Below are positions 11,957 to 23,453 of a DNA stretch of 35,738 nucleotides, piece after piece (the stretch's first letter is position 1; the number at the start of each line of letters is the position of its first letter). The DNA comes from Methanobacteriota archaeon (lineage in GTDB: Archaea; Thermoplasmatota; Thermoplasmata; Methanomassiliicoccales; UBA472). A program made the translations under genes and the position numbers. The DNA is taken from assembly GCA_012729095.1 (NCBI GenBank), contig JAAYDU010000036.1:1-35738 (forward strand), written 5' to 3'. The notes under the pieces are model-generated. The model had not been told where the DNA came from. It worked only from the letters and a program-made list of their open reading frames with translations, and made no database searches.

Positions 11957-14278
11957 ATGGGCACGGTCATGGTGGAGCGGGGCAGCTGGAACTGTAGCAT
12001 ACTCGTCGCGGTCCTGTTGTGCGTTCTTCTGCCGATCTCCTCACTCCCCCTGGGTTCGGAGGGGGCCTCCTACACATCGGAGCCTTTGATCGTGGAGGGG
12101 AACGACGGATTCGCCGGGGCGGGCTTCAGCGGAAGCGGCACCGCCGAGGAACCCTACCTCCTCAGCGAGATGAACGTCAACGCGTTCCAGAAACTTAGCG
12201 GCATCGTGGTCTCGAACACCACCGCCCACTTCCGCATAGTGGGATGCACGGTGCACGATGCATACTCCCCAGACCGCGACCCTCTCAACATGTCTGCGAG
12301 CGGGTCGGGCATCTTACTGATCAATGTCACCAACGCCATCATCGATGATCTCACGGGCGAGTCCAACGTGAGGGGTGTAACGGTCGTGGGGTCCAGGAAC
12401 GTGACGATCAACGGTTCCCGCTTCATTGACAACATCGAGGCCGGGGTGCATGTCGTGAACTGCCTGGACGGGAGCGTAAAGGTCACCAACAGCACGTTCC
12501 GCGTGGGTACCATGGACGACGGGGTGCTACTGGAAGGAAGCAGCTCGGTTCAGGTGACCGACAACGTCATCGAGGGGGGAAGAAACGGCATCGCTGTCCG
12601 GGCCAAAGGCCTGGGGCTTGGCGGCCACCTGCTGGCGGGGAACGCCCTCAGCGGCCAATCGGAGAACGGGGTGCTTCTCGGAGGGACCTCCTTGGGAGCG
12701 GGCGATCTGGTGCTGAACAACACGGTGTGCGGTGCCGCCGGGACCGGGGTTAACGTTCATTTCGGGACCTCCGGGAAGGTGTACGGGAACAGCATATCTG
12801 GATGCTCTTGCGGGGTCAGGGTGGATTGGAGCGACAACGAGGTGATCGGCAACGTGCTGTCGAACAACACCAACGGCGTCGTCTTGGGATCTGGCGCCGA
12901 CCGCAATCTCATAGACGGGAACCTCGTGCAGGACGGCACCGTCGGCGTGCTGGTGTCCCCCAGCCAAGGCAATCTCGTGCTGAACAACACCATAATGCGC
13001 ATGGACACGGTCTCAGGGGCAGGCGTCCATCTGGGGACCGGGGAGGTGAGGGACGCGCGGATCGAAGGGAACGGCGTGTCCTTCTGCACCGTGGGTATCA
13101 GGGCCTCCTCGTTCTCACCGGACATATCCGGTCTGAGGGTGTGGAACAACACGGTCATCGGTTCCCTAAGGAACGGGACGTACCTGCTCAACACCATAGG
13201 TTCCTCACTGCTCGGCAACAGCTTCCTGTCCGGAGGGGGCAGCGGCGTGTACCTGGGGCCCGGGTGCCGGGACATTGTCCTGAAAGGCAACGAAGCGTCC
13301 TTCAACGGCGGGGCCGGCCTCTACGTTCGTGATGCGGACGAATGCGCCATCTCCGAAAACATGTTCATCAGCAACGCCCTGGAAGGCGTGTACCTTGAGA
13401 GCGGGTCTGGGAACGCGATGCACGGCAACGCACTGCTGTTCAACAGGGATTCGGGAAGGCAGTATTCCGAGCTGCGCCCGCAGGCCTTCTGCGGCGAGGG
13501 GGGGAACAACTGGTCCTCGGGCACCGGCAACCTGTGGGCAGACTGGCTGTCCCCCGATGACAACGACGACGGCATCGTGGACCTTCCGTACGAGCTGGCC
13601 GGGGGATACCAGGACCCGTTCCCGCTTACCAGCATCCCCGGGCTGGATATACCGGTGGACATCACCCCACCTGAGGTGATCGGGCACTCCCCGCAGGGTC
13701 GCGACGCCGAGCAGGGCGAGGCCATATCGGTCACCTTCTCCGAGGACATGAACGCCAGTTCGGTGATCGTGATGGTTGAGAATTCCACGAGGAGCGGCAT
13801 CTGGGACGATCGCACGTTCATCCTCGACCTGGAACTGGAGTTCGAGACGGACTACCAGGTCGTGGTCACAGGTGAGGACCTCTCCGGCAACGCTCTCGAA
13901 CAGTTCGGCTGGACCTTCCGCACCGAGGACAGGAACGCCGGGGTCGCCGGCAGGGTAATCAACGAGAACGGCCAGCCGCTGTCCGGGGTCCTGGTCACCG
14001 TCGGCGAGCAGGAGGCCCTGACCAATGTCAACGGCAGCTTCATCATGACACTGTCACCGGGGGACCACGCGCTCAACATGAGCAAGGCCGGCTACCTGGA
14101 CAGGATGGTGATGGTGCACGTGGAGCCCGGCGGGGACATGGTCCTGGAGGACTCGGTGATGGAGACGGTGGCGGAAGGGAACGGGCTTTACACAGACGAT
14201 GTCGTCTACGCGGCCCTGGCCCTGCTGGCGGTGACGGCCGTCGCGGCCGTCGCGCTGTTGCTCAAGCGCCGCAGGTAG
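11957..14278 (+). CDS. Secreted NosD-like beta-helix surface protein
   Basis: A 773-residue exported protein. An N-terminal hydrophobic signal segment (about residues 12-33) is followed by a long right-handed parallel beta-helix built from PbH1-type repeats (about 45-530), visible as recurring N-x-I/V-x-x-N turns such as DNVIEGGRNGIAVRAKG and GNLVLNNTIM. Then come a SbsA-type Ig-like domain (about 568-655, starts TPPEVIGHSPQG), a carboxypeptidase-regulatory-like domain (about 662-735, VAGRVINENGQPLSGVLVTV), a membrane helix (about 748-767) and a KRRR tail. Such proteins are common on the surface of Thermoplasmatota and may bind or cleave glycans, but no catalytic residues are recognised. ATG 11957 is used; ATG 11969 is possible. 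It ends in TAG. Confidence 0.88.
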   Translation: MGTVMVERGSWNCSILVAVLLCVLLPISSLPLGSEGASYTSEPLIVEGNDGFAGAGFSGSGTAEEPYLLSEMNVNAFQKLSGIVVSNTTAHFRIVGCTVHDAYSPDRDPLNMSASGSGILLINVTNAIIDDLTGESNVRGVTVVGSRNVTINGSRFIDNIEAGVHVVNCLDGSVKVTNSTFRVGTMDDGVLLEGSSSVQVTDNVIEGGRNGIAVRAKGLGLGGHLLAGNALSGQSENGVLLGGTSLGAGDLVLNNTVCGAAGTGVNVHFGTSGKVYGNSISGCSCGVRVDWSDNEVIGNVLSNNTNGVVLGSGADRNLIDGNLVQDGTVGVLVSPSQGNLVLNNTIMRMDTVSGAGVHLGTGEVRDARIEGNGVSFCTVGIRASSFSPDISGLRVWNNTVIGSLRNGTYLLNTIGSSLLGNSFLSGGGSGVYLGPGCRDIVLKGNEASFNGGAGLYVRDADECAISENMFISNALEGVYLESGSGNAMHGNALLFNRDSGRQYSELRPQAFCGEGGNNWSSGTGNLWADWLSPDDNDDGIVDLPYELAGGYQDPFPLTSIPGLDIPVDITPPEVIGHSPQGRDAEQGEAISVTFSEDMNASSVIVMVENSTRSGIWDDRTFILDLELEFETDYQVVVTGEDLSGNALEQFGWTFRTEDRNAGVAGRVINENGQPLSGVLVTVGEQEALTNVNGSFIMTLSPGDHALNMSKAGYLDRMVMVHVEPGGDMVLEDSVMETVAEGNGLYTDDVVYAALALLAVTAVAAVALLLKRRR

Positions 14279-16640: not shown

Positions 16641-18572
16641 TCATCTTGGCTCGCCCGTGGCCCGGGCGGTGACCTCTATCCAATCCACGCGTTCCATTCC
16701 CTCTCGGTCCTTAAGGAGGACCTCCCGGAGGTCCGTTCTAAGTACCACATCCCTGGCCCCCGAGTGCTCCGCCCTTCGCTGCACGTGCAGACCGGCGAGT
16801 TCCCGGGCCTGGGCGATGGCCTCGTCCACACTATGGTACTCCCGGGTGTCCCCGAAGGGGGTGACGAACTGGAAGTAGCCGTCGCTCATGGGCTGCACCC
16901 TGAGGGTCATGGTCTCCGAGATCCGGGAGCACACCGCGCCCATCGCGTTGCCGACCTGGGACCCCTCGGGCACGACCACCTCCGTCCCCAGCATGTCACG
17001 CAACGATGACATCAGGACCTTGGCCGGCCCCCCCAATCCCACCAGGGGTCGGTCCAAGCGCAGTCCCAGCCGCAAGGGGCCGGCGGAACGGTCCCTCACC
17101 AGCATTCGGACCAAACCGTCCACCGCGCTGTCGGCGGGAAGGTCCCCCGCCTCGTCAGTTATCAACTTGCGGGCTATCTCCTCGGCCAGGCGACCTACCA
17201 AACGGTGCATTACGCGCCCGCAGCATGATTCCAGGGTCATTACGGTGCCCTCCAGGAAATGCTCCGCCCCTGCCCTCGAGGACTGCAGGTCCCCCACACT
17301 GTGCAGCCCCTCCAGGTTGAAGATGTCCGTGGGCGTGAGCCCGGTCCTCAGCAGATGCCCGCTGCGCACCAGGTCGGCGACGGTGCGCTTCACCAGGTAC
17401 ATGTCCGGGAGGGCCTCTCTCACCTCCTCACTGTCGCAGAGCCCAAGCTCCTCCACCTTGCGATAGACCCTTGCCGGTCCTTCCGCGAGGCCTCTGGGGC
17501 CCCGGGAGGCGATCAGGAAATCCGTTCTCCTCCTGTCCATGATCCGTCGGGGAAGGTCCTTCGCCATCTGCCCGGCCAGGGCCAGCGGCATCACCCTGCT
17601 GGGACCTATGCGCATCCCGCCCTGCATGTCCGAGATGATCTCGGAGTCCCCTCCCAGGGCAACGGTGGTGGTCTCTATTGACCGGACCCGGGTGCGCTGG
17701 CCAGCCACCACGGCCCCCTCGCGGCTCAGGCGCGGGAACCCCTGATCGAAGCAGGCCATGTCGGTAGACGTGCCCCCCATGTCCACCACCAGGCAGTTAT
17801 CCAGGCCGGCCAGCCTGGTGCCGCCCAGAAGGGAGGCCGCCGGTCCTGATAGCAATGTCACCGCCGGCCTTACCCGGGCCTCGCCCGCCGGCATCAGGCT
17901 CCCGTCCCCCCGGAGGACGAACAGCCTGCCGCCGATGCGCAACTCACGCATTGACTCATCCGCGCTGTCCAGAAGTTCGTCCATGATCGGCAGCAGGCGG
18001 GCGTTGAGCACCGCCGCGGCGCTGCGCTCCTCCACACCCATGTCCCCGCCGAGCTCGTTGGCGGCCACCACGGGCATGCCTGTCATCTCATGCACGACCT
18101 GACGGGCCATCTCCTCATGCTCCGGCCGGGACGCGCTGAAAACGGAGGAGACCGCGAAGGCGCCGACCTCTCCAGCCATTGATGACACGGCCTCTCGCAA
18201 CGCCGGCACGTCCAGGGCGGCCAGCTCCTGGCCCTTGCTGTCATGGCCCCCCCTCACGAAGGCCCAGCGCTCGGCCCCCAAGGACCCTGCCCGTTCGGTG
18301 TCCCACCCTATGCCTATCAGTCCCACGCCGCATCCCCGCGACTCCAGAATCGAATCCGTAGCCAGGGTCGTGCACATGCTCACCAGTACCACGTTCCCCG
18401 GATCGAAACGATGTTCCCGGAGCAGGTCCCCCACGGAACCCACGATGCCCCCGGCCAGGTCGTGATGGGTGGTGCTTGCCTTGTTCCAAGCCATAAGCCT
18501 TCTGTCCCGCAGGTCCACGATGACCGCGTCCGTGAAGGTGCTTCCCACGTCTATTCCCAGCCCCAGTTCCAT
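16641..18572 (-). CDS. Hydantoinase/oxoprolinase family protein
   Basis: A 643-residue ATP-binding protein of the HyuA/oxoprolinase A group. The N-terminal Hydant_A_N domain begins GLGIDVGSTFTDAVIVDL and is followed by the acetate-kinase-like catalytic half with VVDMGGTSTDMACF near residue 265. Known members open cyclic amides such as hydantoin or 5-oxoproline with ATP, usually with a HyuB partner; no HyuB gene is adjacent here. Archaeal and methanogen homologues without HyuB are of unknown function. A GGAGG motif lies just upstream of the ATG. It diverges from the MoxR gene across a 100-base gap, and its last codons lie 38 bases before the DUF362 gene. Confidence 0.85.
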   Translation of the reverse strand: MELGLGIDVGSTFTDAVIVDLRDRRLMAWNKASTTHHDLAGGIVGSVGDLLREHRFDPGNVVLVSMCTTLATDSILESRGCGVGLIGIGWDTERAGSLGAERWAFVRGGHDSKGQELAALDVPALREAVSSMAGEVGAFAVSSVFSASRPEHEEMARQVVHEMTGMPVVAANELGGDMGVEERSAAAVLNARLLPIMDELLDSADESMRELRIGGRLFVLRGDGSLMPAGEARVRPAVTLLSGPAASLLGGTRLAGLDNCLVVDMGGTSTDMACFDQGFPRLSREGAVVAGQRTRVRSIETTTVALGGDSEIISDMQGGMRIGPSRVMPLALAGQMAKDLPRRIMDRRRTDFLIASRGPRGLAEGPARVYRKVEELGLCDSEEVREALPDMYLVKRTVADLVRSGHLLRTGLTPTDIFNLEGLHSVGDLQSSRAGAEHFLEGTVMTLESCCGRVMHRLVGRLAEEIARKLITDEAGDLPADSAVDGLVRMLVRDRSAGPLRLGLRLDRPLVGLGGPAKVLMSSLRDMLGTEVVVPEGSQVGNAMGAVCSRISETMTLRVQPMSDGYFQFVTPFGDTREYHSVDEAIAQARELAGLHVQRRAEHSGARDVVLRTDLREVLLKDREGMERVDWIEVTARATGEPR

Positions 18573-18625: not shown

Positions 18626-18636
18626 ATTTTATAAAT
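18626..18636 (+). promoter_or_regulatory. TATA box for the MoxR-VWA operon
   Basis: TTTTATAAATC is centred about 42 nt before the ATG at 18673, predicting a leader of about 15 nt. It lies in the 100-base divergent gap shared with the hydantoinase-like gene. Confidence 0.55.
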
Positions 18637-18672: not shown

Positions 18673-20124
18673 ATGAGCGGGGGGCAGTTTCAAGACAATG
18701 CGGTCAGGGCGTTCCCGGAAAGGCTCGGCACGATCATGGCCGAGCTGCGAGAACAGTTCATGGAGAGGGAGGAGGAGATCGGCGGCGCCCTGCTGGCCAT
18801 GCTCGCCGGCGAGCACGTGCTGTTCATCGGCCCGCCCGGCACTGCCAAGAGCCAGATGGCCAAGGCAATGTGCGAGAGGCTGCGCGGCGCGTACTTCTAT
18901 TACTACCTGCTCACCCGTTTCACATCGCCCGAGGAGGTGTTCGGTCCGCTTTCCCTCAGCTCCCTGCAGAGGGACGAGTTCCGAAGGCGCACCGAGGGTT
19001 ACCTCCCGCAGGCCAACATAGCGTTCCTGGACGAGATATTCAAGGCCAACTCGTCGATACTGAACAGCCTGCTCACCATACTGAACGAGAGGCGGTTCCA
19101 CAACGGCAGCGAGGTGGTGAAGGTTCCCATACTCTCCGTCTACGGCGCCTCCAACGAGCTTCCCAACGAGGAGGAGGGTCTTGCGGCGCTATACGACCGC
19201 TTCCTGTATCGGTTCTTCATTGCCAACGTCCAGGACGAGGGCAACTTCCTGAAGGTGCTAACGGACACCGGCGGAACGGTCTCCGGGACGACCATGGAGG
19301 TCGAAGACGTGGACCGGATAAAGGAGGGGGCCCGGTCAGTGACGGTGGACGAGGAGGTGCTGCAGGCCTATCTGAGCTTGAGGAAGCACTTCCGCTCCCA
19401 GAACGTCTACGTGTCCGACCGCCGCTGGAACAAGACCCTGACGGTACTTCGGACCGCGGCCGCGGCCATGGGCCGTAGCAAGGTCGATCCGACGTTCCTG
19501 CCGCTTCTGCAGCACATGCTGTGGGACCGGCCCGAGCAGAAGGAAGGGCTGAGGGACATGTTGATCGACCTGGCCAGCAGCGGGGGGGTGGACCTTCGTC
19601 GTTTGCAGGCGAGCAGCGAGGAGCTGCTCTCTCTGCTGGCCAAGGCCAAGCAGAGTTCCGTCTCCGACGCGCAGTTCCCGAGGCCAGTTTGCTGCTACGA
19701 CTGCGGTTCCACATTCATGAGCGCCAAGGAACTTTGCCGGCACGGGGAGTCTTTCCCCAACCATGTGTACATGGACCCCTACGCCAAGGACGCCAAGGGC
19801 CTCAATCCCTCCTACCGCAAGTTCGAGCTGCCCGAGCTGATGCACGTGCTGGAGAACGTCAGGGGCTGGAAGGTGACATGCCTCAGGGGAGGGGCCGAAC
19901 ATCGCCTTTACGAAAGGGAGCTGCAGGAACTGCGCGCGGCCTATCAGAGGGTGAGAGAGACGCATGAGCTGGAGAGGGGGGAGCTTCGCGATCGTCTTGA
20001 CCAGAACATCTGGCTCAGCCAGAGGGACCGCCGGGACATACTGGCCAGGCAGGACCATCGTCTGGAATCGATGTCCGACATAGAGCGTTCCCTCAAGGAA
20101 GTGGAAGCGGAGCTCAAGGGGTGA
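18673..20124 (+). CDS. MoxR/RavA-type AAA+ ATPase with C2H2-like zinc finger
   Basis: A 483-residue AAA+ protein of the MoxR/RavA group, chaperone-like ATPases that usually work with a VWA-domain partner to activate or insert metals into target complexes. Walker A is GPPGTAKS (residues 53-60) and Walker B is IAFLDEIF (116-123), followed by sensor 1 GASNELP and an arginine-finger region LYDRFLYRF. After the lid domain comes an unusual segment, C341-x2-C344-x12-H357-x6-H364, which looks like a C2H2 zinc finger. The last 70 residues form a charged coiled coil. ATG 18673 is chosen because it follows a TATA box; the upstream open frame overlaps the divergent gene. The gene ends 4 nt before the VWA partner. 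Confidence 0.9.
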   Translation: MSGGQFQDNAVRAFPERLGTIMAELREQFMEREEEIGGALLAMLAGEHVLFIGPPGTAKSQMAKAMCERLRGAYFYYYLLTRFTSPEEVFGPLSLSSLQRDEFRRRTEGYLPQANIAFLDEIFKANSSILNSLLTILNERRFHNGSEVVKVPILSVYGASNELPNEEEGLAALYDRFLYRFFIANVQDEGNFLKVLTDTGGTVSGTTMEVEDVDRIKEGARSVTVDEEVLQAYLSLRKHFRSQNVYVSDRRWNKTLTVLRTAAAAMGRSKVDPTFLPLLQHMLWDRPEQKEGLRDMLIDLASSGGVDLRRLQASSEELLSLLAKAKQSSVSDAQFPRPVCCYDCGSTFMSAKELCRHGESFPNHVYMDPYAKDAKGLNPSYRKFELPELMHVLENVRGWKVTCLRGGAEHRLYERELQELRAAYQRVRETHELERGELRDRLDQNIWLSQRDRRDILARQDHRLESMSDIERSLKEVEAELKG

Positions 20125-20128
20125 TGCC

Positions 20129-21574
20129 ATGCTCCCTTCCCGTCAGGCACGTGATCTGATGGAGAGGCCAGAGGTGCGCGCGCTCCTCGCGGTACCCGGA
20201 ACGGTCCCCTTTAGGGAGAGGGAAATGGTCGCCACGCTCATGGCCGCCGACCTGCTTGGCGAGGGAATGTCGGTGGACCCGGTCGACCTGGCATCCATGG
20301 TCACGCGCTCCCTTTTTGAAAGCAGGGCCTGGAGGGACGCCAGGGACCTGGCCGAAGGCCGGCCTGATATGGTGCCGGAAATTCTCACCATCTCCCTCCC
20401 TCCCGTCCTGGAGGCCTTGGAGAAGGGCCTGGCCGGTCTTGACTGGAGCGAATTGCCCGAAGGGGAAAGAAGGCTTGCCGAGGGCCTCCTGGAGGCGCTG
20501 CTGGACCCCGAGGGGCGCGATGGGGGGCAGATCGATCTGGATGAGCGGCAGAGGGCGGCGCTTATGCTGGTCCTCAGGATGATGGTCAGGTCCCTGGACC
20601 GCAGCCTGGCGCCGCTCGTCGACGGGCTGCAGAGGGACGCCGAGGTCCTGGTCCGCCTCGAGGCCATGCTTCCCGGGCTGGGATGGGACATGCACCGGGT
20701 GGCGCCGCACAGGGGCAAGCTGGGGGACCTGGAGAGGTACGCCGCGTTCCTTCGCAAGCACAAGGACATCGACCGCCTGAAGGACATGCTGGGAAGGGTG
20801 GAGGGCGAGAGGAGGGCGCTCTCCGATGCCCAGTCCATGACCGAGACGCATTCTTTGGTGTTCTCGGGGGACGTGCAGCGAATGCTGCCCCAGGAGCTGG
20901 TCAACCTGGCCGACGAACGTCTGAAGCTGCTATTCTATGCCAGGATGTGCGAGCGGAGGCTTCTCACGTATCAGCTGCGGGGGAGGGAGCTCCGGGGCGG
21001 GGAGAGGGGAAAGCCCGGTCCGGTGGTGGCCCTGCTCGATTCGTCCGGTTCCATGAGCGGGGAGCCGGAGCTGGTAGCGAAGGCGCTGCTCCTGGCCCTC
21101 TCCAGGCGATTGTCGGAGGAGCGCCGCCCTTTGCGCGCCCTGATGTTTTCGGTGGACGTTCGCTCCTATGACCTTTGGGGGCCCTCAGGCGCTTCTCAGT
21201 TCCTGGACTTCCTATGCCAAACGTTCGGCGGGGGGACCGATTTCGATGCCGCCCTGCGTCAGGGGATAAAGAGCCTGAGCGAGCCGGAATGGAAGGGGGC
21301 GGACATACTCTTCATCACGGACGGGCTCGCCCGCATAAGGGACAGGGGCTGCCTTCACGACTGGAACTGCCTGAAGGAAAGGCAGGGCTGCCGCATATTC
21401 ACAGTGCTGGTCGGGGGAACGGAGCCCGGGGGTCTGCATAGGATATCCGACCGGGTGTTCCTTATGGACCGCCGCGGGGAATGGTCCTCCGGGTCGCTGC
21501 TGCAGGAGTTCACCCCTCAGCCGCGCTCCGCCGGTTCCTGCTGGGTGACGCAGTGTATGCCCCCGTACCCGTAG
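20129..21574 (+). CDS. VWA domain protein, ViaA/CoxE-like partner of the MoxR ATPase
   Basis: A 481-residue protein with a helical N-terminal region (about 1-290) and a C-terminal von Willebrand A domain. All three MIDAS elements are visible: DSSGSMS (304-310), the Thr of FGGGTDF (T370) and the Asp of ITDG, so it should bind Mg2+ or a similar metal. The arrangement is that of E. coli ViaA and CoxE-type proteins, which act with RavA/MoxR ATPases encoded next door. It starts 4 nt after the ATPase gene, implying a two-gene operon. Its last 58 nt overlap the convergent agmatine deiminase gene, a long overlap, and it ends in TAG. Target complex unknown. Confidence 0.88.
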   Translation: MLPSRQARDLMERPEVRALLAVPGTVPFREREMVATLMAADLLGEGMSVDPVDLASMVTRSLFESRAWRDARDLAEGRPDMVPEILTISLPPVLEALEKGLAGLDWSELPEGERRLAEGLLEALLDPEGRDGGQIDLDERQRAALMLVLRMMVRSLDRSLAPLVDGLQRDAEVLVRLEAMLPGLGWDMHRVAPHRGKLGDLERYAAFLRKHKDIDRLKDMLGRVEGERRALSDAQSMTETHSLVFSGDVQRMLPQELVNLADERLKLLFYARMCERRLLTYQLRGRELRGGERGKPGPVVALLDSSGSMSGEPELVAKALLLALSRRLSEERRPLRALMFSVDVRSYDLWGPSGASQFLDFLCQTFGGGTDFDAALRQGIKSLSEPEWKGADILFITDGLARIRDRGCLHDWNCLKERQGCRIFTVLVGGTEPGGLHRISDRVFLMDRRGEWSSGSLLQEFTPQPRSAGSCWVTQCMPPYP

Positions 21575-22569
21575 ACCAGCTCCCTGGCCTCTATGGGCAC
21601 TATCTCTCTCCCCGGGAAATGGGAGGCCATGATGTCCATGGCGACCTTGTCCATGGGATCCTCGAACACAGGCAGCAGCACCACCTTGTTGCCGATGTAG
21701 AAGTTAGCGTAGCTGGCCGGCAGGTTCCTACTCTCTTCCTCCAGGAAAAGGGGTTCGGGCATGGGGAGGCGCTGCAGCTCGAGCCCGAAGCGGTCCTTGG
21801 CCTTCTCGAGCAATGACCAGTTATTCTCCAGCACCGGAGCGTTCTCTCCCCTCTCGGAAAAAGCGCAGAGCACCGCGGACTCGGACGAGAAGCGCGCGAA
21901 ATCGTCTATGTGGCCGTCTGTGTCGTCGCCCTCTATGCCCGACGCGAGCCATATCACATCCGGAGCGGCTATGTAGCTTCGAAGGTACCCTTCTATCTGC
22001 TGGCGGTCCAGTTGCGGGTTCCGGTTCCTGTTCAGCAGGCACTGTTCGGTCGTCAAGACCAAACCGTTCCCGTTCACATCGATCGACCCTCCTTCCAAAA
22101 CAATGCCCGGTTTGAAATAGGGAACGCCCGAGCTTTCCACGACATGCTGTCCCGCGATGTCGTCATAAAGCAGATCGTCGTACTTCGCCCCCCAGGCGTT
22201 GAAGTCCCATTTCACCGCGGCCTTCCTTCCCGTCCCGTCATGCAGGAGGAAGGTAGGGCCGTAGTCCCTGATCCACACGTCCGCGCTCCTTATGCGCAGG
22301 AAACGGACCCGGGACATGTCCGCACCGGCCACGGCCACCCTGGCATAGGCCCTTTCCTCAAGGGCCTGGTCGTCAACAAGTATCTTGACCAGCTCCCCCG
22401 AGCTCAGGGCGGCGGCCATTTGAGCGAAGGTGCCTTCCACCTCCTCTATGACCTCATCCGGAAATGTCAGGGGGTTCTTGGGCCAGGAAAGCCAAGTGGC
22501 GTCGTGCTTCGCCCACTCGGCCGGCATGCGGTATCCCTTGGAGAGCGGGGTACCCTCCAGCAAGGACAT
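21517..22569 (-). CDS. aguA: Agmatine deiminase
   Basis: Converts agmatine to N-carbamoylputrescine and ammonia in the cytoplasm. The 350-residue protein has the guanidino-modifying enzyme fold with its signatures: WPKNP near the N-terminus, the substrate loop VWIRDYGPTF, LEGGSIDVNG, EGDDTDGHIDDFARF and the catalytic Cys of GYGGIHCVTQQ (C340) close to the C-terminus. The ATG at 22569 starts 2 nt after the aguB stop codon, so the genes form an operon in pathway-reverse order. The frame is open further upstream to 22641 but that part lies inside aguB. Its 3' end is antisense to the last 58 nt of the VWA gene. Confidence 0.93.
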   Translation of the reverse strand: MSLLEGTPLSKGYRMPAEWAKHDATWLSWPKNPLTFPDEVIEEVEGTFAQMAAALSSGELVKILVDDQALEERAYARVAVAGADMSRVRFLRIRSADVWIRDYGPTFLLHDGTGRKAAVKWDFNAWGAKYDDLLYDDIAGQHVVESSGVPYFKPGIVLEGGSIDVNGNGLVLTTEQCLLNRNRNPQLDRQQIEGYLRSYIAAPDVIWLASGIEGDDTDGHIDDFARFSSESAVLCAFSERGENAPVLENNWSLLEKAKDRFGLELQRLPMPEPLFLEEESRNLPASYANFYIGNKVVLLPVFEDPMDKVAMDIMASHFPGREIVPIEARELVYGYGGIHCVTQQEPAERG

Positions 22570-22571
22570 TC

Positions 22572-23453
22572 TCACTTCCCCCCGGTCATCCGCACCAGCA
22601 TCCCGTAGCATTCCGGACGGCGATTGTGAAAGAACCTCCACCCCTCCCTGACCCTTCTCCCGTGGTCCATGTCCACCTCCGCCAGGAGCACCTCCTCGTC
22701 CTTACCCGCCCTGGCCAGGGTCTTTCCGAAGGCATCGCATACGAAGGAGCCGCCGAAGAACTCGCTCTCCCCTTCCACGCCGACCCTGTTCACGGCGCAA
22801 ACCGGGACCGCGTTGGCTATGGCGTGCCCGCGCATGACACCCTCCCACGCTTCCTGCCAATCCCCCTCCGCCTGACCTATGCCGCGAACGGTGCCTATGG
22901 CCGTCGGATAGAATATGATCTCCGCGCCGAGCAGCGCCGAGCAGCGCGCGGCCTCCGGAAACCACTGGTCGTAGCATATCAAGGCCGATATTCTCCCTCG
23001 CGAGGTCTGGAACGCCCGGAAACCCGTGTCGCCCGGCGTGAAATAATGCTGCTCGTAGAAGCACTCGTCGTGCGGGATGTGCGTCTTGCGGTACTTGCCC
23101 AGCATGCTCCCGTCGCCCTCGAAGACCGGCGTGGTGTTGAAAAGGCCGTCCTCCGCCGCCTCGTACAGTGAACCGCCGATCACCACCGACCCGGTCCTTC
23201 TCGCCAGGTCGGACAGCGTTTCGCTGACCAGTCCAGGAATGGTGCTTAGGAATCCCCCGCGCTCCCTCTTGCCCTCCGGGTCCTCCTCCCTCGGGAAGTA
23301 GGGGGTTGTGAAGAGCTCGGGCAGGCAGATGATGTCCGCCCCCCGCGAGGCGGCCTCCTCGGACATGCGCACTGCCTTGTTCAGGTTGTCCGATACCTCG
23401 GGCGCCATGGCCATCTGCACCAGGCCTACTCTCAGGGTGCGTTCTCCAGGCAT
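22572..23453 (-). CDS. aguB: N-carbamoylputrescine amidase
   Basis: Nitrilase-superfamily (carbon-nitrogen hydrolase) enzyme of 293 residues that hydrolyses N-carbamoylputrescine to putrescine, CO2 and ammonia. The catalytic triad is present: E46 in LPELF, K123 in YRKTHIP and C160 in ICYDQWFPE. The sequences GGSFVCDAFGK and CFYEQHYFTPGD are those of AguB rather than of other amidases. It is the first gene of the aguB-aguA operon. A TATA box (23475-23486, minus strand) is centred about 28 nt from the ATG, so transcription is probably leaderless. Substrate assignment gains weight from the adjacent agmatine deiminase. Confidence 0.92.
   Translation of the reverse strand: MPGERTLRVGLVQMAMAPEVSDNLNKAVRMSEEAASRGADIICLPELFTTPYFPREEDPEGKRERGGFLSTIPGLVSETLSDLARRTGSVVIGGSLYEAAEDGLFNTTPVFEGDGSMLGKYRKTHIPHDECFYEQHYFTPGDTGFRAFQTSRGRISALICYDQWFPEAARCSALLGAEIIFYPTAIGTVRGIGQAEGDWQEAWEGVMRGHAIANAVPVCAVNRVGVEGESEFFGGSFVCDAFGKTLARAGKDEEVLLAEVDMDHGRRVREGWRFFHNRRPECYGMLVRMTGGK

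Follow-up and report, generated by a model that had tools for sequence, protein, structure and literature searches.

A RavA–ViaA-type gene pair of methanogenic archaea with a predicted C2H2 zinc finger at the probable LARA position of the ATPase

The window analysed here is the whole of a 35,738 nt stretch, contig JAAYDU010000036.1 of assembly GCA_012729095.1 from Methanomassiliicoccales UBA472, the genome of which is 99.4% complete. Near its centre an ATPase gene is followed on the forward strand by a gene for a VWA protein, and a hydantoinase-like gene diverges from the pair on the reverse strand. The features are located as follows.

16641..18572, − strand: hydantoinase/oxoprolinase-like ASKHA protein, 643 aa, divergent from the ATPase
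18628..18636: TTTATAAAT, TATA-like element between the divergent genes, picked by eye; putative shared promoter
18673..20124, + strand: zinc-finger RavA-type MoxR AAA+ ATPase, 483 aa, stop codon 20122–20124
18715..19572, + strand: AAA+ module with lid, residues 15–300; Walker A GPPGTAKS 53–60, Walker B FLDE 118–121
19594..19668, + strand: first helix of the three-helix bundle, residues 308–332 (AlphaFold model)
19669..19887, + strand: insert at the probable LARA position, residues 333–405; C2H2 finger, then a small second subdomain
19693..19764, + strand: C2H2 motif C341-x2-C344-x12-H357-x6-H364
19894..20118, + strand: second and third bundle helices, residues 408–444 and 450–482, with a conserved NIWLS turn
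20129..21574, + strand: ViaA-like VWA partner, 481-aa reading frame
20684..21469, + strand: region homologous to the ViaA middle and VWA domains, residues 186–447
21038..21322, + strand: VWA MIDAS, D304-x-S306-x-S308, T370-D371 and D398

The ATPase had originally been assigned to the MoxR/RavA type, and this was borne out by its Pfam matches (bpMoxR as the best domain, AAA_5 and AAA_lid_8), by NCBIfam, in which RavA was the best curated family at 235 bits against an equivalog cut-off of 681 bits, and by the 42% identity of the AAA+ module to E. coli RavA (E = 1e-65). The RavA-like AAA+ module with lid that marks the family is present in the window ATPase, and the closest solved relative is E. 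coli RavA, with the sequence match confined to residues 14–303. A 70-residue coiled coil had been placed behind this module. The region is indeed helical, but the AlphaFold model resolves it into two helices, residues 408–444 and 450–482, which pack with the helix at residues 308–332 as a RavA-like three-helix bundle. In Methanomassiliicoccales archaeon RumEn M1 (L015/L045) the frame of the finger-bearing ATPase is broken behind the finger, giving a 407-aa frame with the remainder in another frame.

The VWA gene starts at 20129, 4 nt behind the ATPase stop codon as the original prediction had it, and its product was confirmed as ViaA-type, with a middle domain and a VWA domain containing a MIDAS. 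Residues 186–447 aligned with residues 184–470 of E. coli ViaA at 32% identity (E = 5e-36), and the MIDAS was complete and did not vary among 16 homologues, E. coli ViaA included. ViaA was also the best NCBIfam match, at a score well below the equivalog cut-off. A PDB sequence search with the VWA protein returned nothing, and residues 1–185 gave no match to the N-terminal VAN domain of ViaA by pairwise BLAST or PDB search. The ATPase and VWA genes were found in the same genomes (61 genomes) and were adjacent in nearly all loci examined, the exceptions being G045, where they lie on different contigs, and L203, where no VWA ORF was clustered. Over the last ~30 residues of the window's VWA frame the aligned frame in relatives runs into stops, and because these codons align to stop-containing sequence the window gene may have lost an earlier stop. 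The tail runs over the 3′ end of aguA, which is convergent with the VWA gene, the shared stretch being 21517–21574.

Direct counting of the Cys/His motif gave the spacing first described, C341-x2-C344-x12-H357-x6-H364, and the pattern C-x2-C-x12-H-x3-6-H arose in 9 of 200,000 shuffles of the ATPase protein. The four ligands and F348 were invariant in 14 of 14 full-length orthologues, 13 of which were 44–84% identical to the window protein. Loss of the Cys/His set from close homologues, named beforehand as a refuting outcome, was therefore not seen. Among 21 diverse finger-bearing rows the ligands were the sole invariant residues of insert 333–405; these rows had been picked for carrying the four ligands, so that what the comparison adds is the lack of any other fixed residue in the insert. 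Mean pairwise identity over the same rows was 0.375 for the insert versus 0.609 for the AAA+ module. A cross-phylum alignment of 32 rows, which took in finger-bearing proteins only and spanned 20–89% identity, likewise had the two cysteines and two histidines, conserved together, as its sole invariant insert columns. In this alignment the finger surface was poorly conserved beyond the ligands and some hydrophobic or proline positions, and the net charge of the fingers ranged from −5 to +4, mostly ≤ +1. All 50 distinct finger-bearing tails keep C-x2-C and H-x5/6-H, with spacings of x12/x6 (44 tails), x12/x5 (2) and x35/x6 (4). The x35/x6 tails belong to one of two Methanosarcina-like paralogues, in which the loop is extended from 12 to 35 residues with the ligands kept. 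The paralogue sets in the Methanosarcina-like genomes comprise L170, L172, L177 and L183 on the one side and L164–L169 on the other.

The AlphaFold model of the ATPase had a mean pLDDT of 85.5 and the order helix, finger, two helices. Strands at residues 334–341 and 347–350 and a helix at 351–360 give the finger a predicted ββα arrangement, and the insert modelled alone gave the same finger with a pLDDT of about 95 over it. Scattered ligands had been named as the outcome that would speak against a metal site, and the model instead gathers them in a confident ββα finger. A profile of the finger matched C2H2 fingers in the PDB, although this is a motif-level match only, since whole-chain E-values are inflated by tandem fingers and single fingers scored about 14 bits. 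A Foldseek search with the isolated insert, a very short domain and for this reason without significant matches, gave nominal matches to CTCF, tramtrack and an archaeal virus finger. By its ligands, their spacing and their conservation this is a genuine C2H2 finger, its fold and zinc binding being predicted. In methanogens, the subdomain that follows the finger in the insert may be a second, degenerate finger.

The LARA domain of E. coli RavA comprises L336–A433 and binds LdcI (PMC10585395), and the middle domain of ViaA stimulates RavA via the triple-helical bundle (PMC10585395; see also PMC6987120). Insert 333–405 of the window ATPase is modelled with one helix before it and two after, and with the whole ATPase model Foldseek gave E. 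coli RavA as the best PDB fold match (E = 5e-26, ~506 columns). At the sequence level the hhalign alignment of the ATPase to LARA-type RavA stops at residue 316, and the comparison of finger-type and LARA-type helix bundles scored 15.3 against 14.0 for the reversed control, which is not significant; positional equivalence is therefore argued from domain order and the predicted structure. The LARA β-barrel is not present in the window ATPase and the C2H2 insert stands in its place. The finger is foreign to standard RavA, as had been supposed, and judged from the model it most likely occupies the LARA client-binding position inside the three-helix bundle and is not an extra appendage.

The 50 distinct finger-bearing sequences came from Methanomassiliicoccales, Methanocella, a Methanosarcina-like set and one Asgard archaeon (Borrarchaeum). 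The Methanosarcina-like set is a large group of 3–5.8 Mb genomes from the phylum of Methanocella, most with two copies. One two-copy genome we take to be Methanosarcina acetivorans, and the bpMoxR family was present in the control genome carrying that name. A tree built on the AAA+ core separated three clades. The first (97/84) united the archaeal proteins that bear the finger with four archaeal ones that do not, the second (100/98) held LARA-type RavA, and the third (100/98) consisted of short proteins without an insert, mostly from bacteria. The suggestion that the finger defines an archaeal variant was upheld, and it applies clade-wide. The pair L185/L186, presumably Methanothrix-like, and the Heimdallarchaeota member lack the Cys/His set, and the simplest reading of the archaeal clade is that the finger was gained once and lost in these members, which makes it dispensable in some lineages. 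A Thorarchaeota relative lacks the insert, and the Heimdallarchaeota relative (L072) retains finger remnants only. Candidatus Borrarchaeum (L068:5980–7404) has two tandem C2H2 fingers, CYNC...H-x5-H and CPYC...H-x4-H. LARA-type, E. coli-like RavA is found in a few Methanomassiliicoccales and Asgard genomes (L018, L153, L158, L159), apparently by lateral transfer.

When recurring neighbours were mapped across genomes, none was common to all clades. Of the flanking genes noted originally, the hydantoinase-like gene recurs, divergently paired with the ATPase gene, both within the window's genus and in one further family, whereas the polyamine genes aguA/aguB adjoin only in the window's genus; a polyamine target by analogy with LdcI was rejected on this ground. 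The two polyamine genes (21517–23453) encode an agmatine deiminase and an N-carbamoylputrescine amidase for putrescine synthesis from agmatine. The ATPase-linked hydantoinase-like copies form a group of their own, distinct from the remaining paralogues (support 69/95; recovered in 66% of bootstrap trees), and genus members without the ATPase are also without the linked copy and keep only the common paralogue. This dedicated paralogue is the best lead to a client in the window's lineage. In Methanocella the neighbours are cobyric acid synthase (cobQ) and a BtuF/BtuD-like ABC transporter, in a Methanomethylophilaceae-like clade a CobB/CfbB-type synthase lies downstream, Methanomassiliicoccus has a CobW-like GTPase nearby, and in the Methanosarcina-like genomes an E1/ThiF-like enzyme or MATE/MarR genes adjoin. 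In L034, L051, L053, L058, L061 and L065 the CobB/CfbB-type a,c-diamide synthase gene lies near the VWA gene and converges with it. Elsewhere in the window are a large predicted secreted protein with NosD-like β-helix, Big_5 and CarboxypepD_reg domains (11957–14278) and a CPxCG-related zinc-finger protein (PF19769; 5708–6574) near a rhomboid protease gene.

The gene pair, its domain order and phylogeny, and the identity, conservation and position of the finger are drawn from the sequences, trees and models, as are the intact MIDAS and Walker motifs. We consider it probable that the pair is a RavA–ViaA-type AAA+ chaperone in which the client-docking head has been exchanged for a zinc finger. 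By analogy with E. coli RavA–ViaA, the ATPase would form a hexamer with each subunit projecting a three-helix bundle, the ViaA-like partner would dock on this bundle by its middle domain, and ATP hydrolysis would remodel or mature the client. The bundle tip would carry a single C2H2 finger instead of LARA, and the partner would touch the client through its MIDAS. The Walker motifs, the MIDAS, the ViaA middle domain and the bundle support a remodelling machine of this style. As LARA is a partner-docking head, partner docking is the most economical role for the finger, which may be a small protein-docking module, held together by zinc, on which client specificity depends, and the low net charge of the fingers argues for a protein partner rather than nucleic acid. 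The poorly conserved finger surface would not, from the alignments, demand one common partner. Metal insertion into a client is possible. Far more tentatively, the bundle tip might be an exchangeable docking cassette, with methanogens having swapped LARA for a finger. That finger would bring in an enzyme peculiar to methanogens, perhaps a complex dependent on a corrinoid or on F430, or else the dedicated hydantoinase-like protein, to be matured or repaired at the expense of ATP.

The finger could instead be a structural spacer, its zinc merely holding the insert and capping the bundle while specificity comes wholly from the VWA partner. Such a role would fit the poor conservation of the insert beyond the ligands, the lineages from which the finger is missing, and the behaviour of E. 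coli RavA without LARA, which is still an active, ViaA-stimulated ATPase (PMC10585395). However, the four ligands are kept across phyla and through a 23-residue loop extension, which would be unexpected for a mere spacer, and in RavA a head known to bind partners sits at the equivalent position, so that we regard a spacer as unlikely. A zinc or redox switch, in which the finger would control the ATPase in response to metal status or oxidation, would suit hosts that are mostly methanogen lineages, methanogens being strict anaerobes, but C2H2 geometry is typical of stable structural fingers and redox-switch sites usually have four Cys. Although removal of LARA raises the activity of E. coli RavA more than twofold, which points to auto-inhibition by the head (PMC10585395), a switch is judged very unlikely. 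Recruitment of the hexamer to DNA or RNA by the finger, a nucleic-acid target having been proposed at the outset, finds a precedent in a known archaeal C2H2 DNA-binding protein (PMC3541406), and the PDB C2H2 fingers that match the profile are mostly DNA-binding. The present fingers are single and mostly neutral to acidic, however, and no nucleic-acid enzyme recurs beside the finger-RavA loci, which together make this role highly improbable.

The suggestion that the pair matures a corrinoid or other metallocofactor, in the manner of CobS/CobT, NorQ/NorD or CoxD/CoxE, concerns the client and is compatible with the finger as a docking head. It draws on the cobQ, BtuF/BtuD-like, CobB/CfbB-type and CobW-like genes near the pair in the three groups named above. 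These genes differ between clades and are common in methanogens, however, and the corrinoid theme, though suggestive, is for this reason within a rough estimate of chance expectation. CobN is absent from most finger-bearing relatives, and a CobN cobaltochelatase partnership was rejected for the window, the genome of which has no PF02514 match. A nitrogenase link was also rejected, with nifD in 4 of 61 relatives and no pattern. A corrinoid or other metallocofactor client appears unlikely.

The finger-RavA and ViaA-like pair is a real variant of a known machine and is widespread in methanogens. No description of a zinc-finger MoxR/RavA in methanogens was found in open-access full texts, which leave subscription papers mostly uncovered. 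To our knowledge nearly all understanding of RavA–ViaA comes from E. coli, and the partners of LARA besides LdcI are debated. A natural, clade-wide replacement of LARA by a finger therefore offers a clean handle on client choice by MoxR chaperones, and docking of a protein would be an unusual use of an archaeal C2H2 finger. Direct testing is possible because the two-copy host that we take to be Methanosarcina acetivorans is genetically manipulable.

Compared with E. coli RavA–ViaA, the window pair has a 42% identical AAA+ module, AAA_lid_8, the same ATPase-then-VWA gene order and, in the model, a similar helix-bundle arrangement, and its VWA protein shares with ViaA the middle and VWA domains with a complete MIDAS. 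It differs in the C2H2 insert that replaces the LARA β-barrel, in its separate clade, in scores below the equivalog cut-offs, and in the VAN domain, which neither pairwise BLAST nor PDB search detected in the window partner. The coupling of a MoxR ATPase to a VWA protein is shared with NorQ/NorD, CoxD/CoxE and CobS/CobT, and for such pairs it has been proposed that the VWA domain generally acts by plugging the pore of the ring (PMC9976466). Unlike CobS/CobT, the window pair occurs in a genome without CobN, and unlike the ATPase, NorQ consists of one AAA+ module and has no bundle that bears a finger. The bpMoxR ternary conflict systems (PF20030) combine MoxR, VWA and a β-propeller third component (PMC7159879). 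The window pair resembles them in its paired VWA and in bpMoxR as the best Pfam match of the AAA+ core, but no β-propeller was present among the flanking genes scanned, and neither the ATPase nor the VWA protein had a PADLOC match, on which basis a role in anti-phage defence was rejected. The finger itself resembles the C2H2 fingers of Zif268 and CTCF in its C-x2-C-x12-H-x5/6-H pattern, its predicted ββα arrangement and the largely conserved positions of F348 and L354, and differs from them as a single, neutral to acidic H-x6-H finger set inside an AAA+ chaperone.
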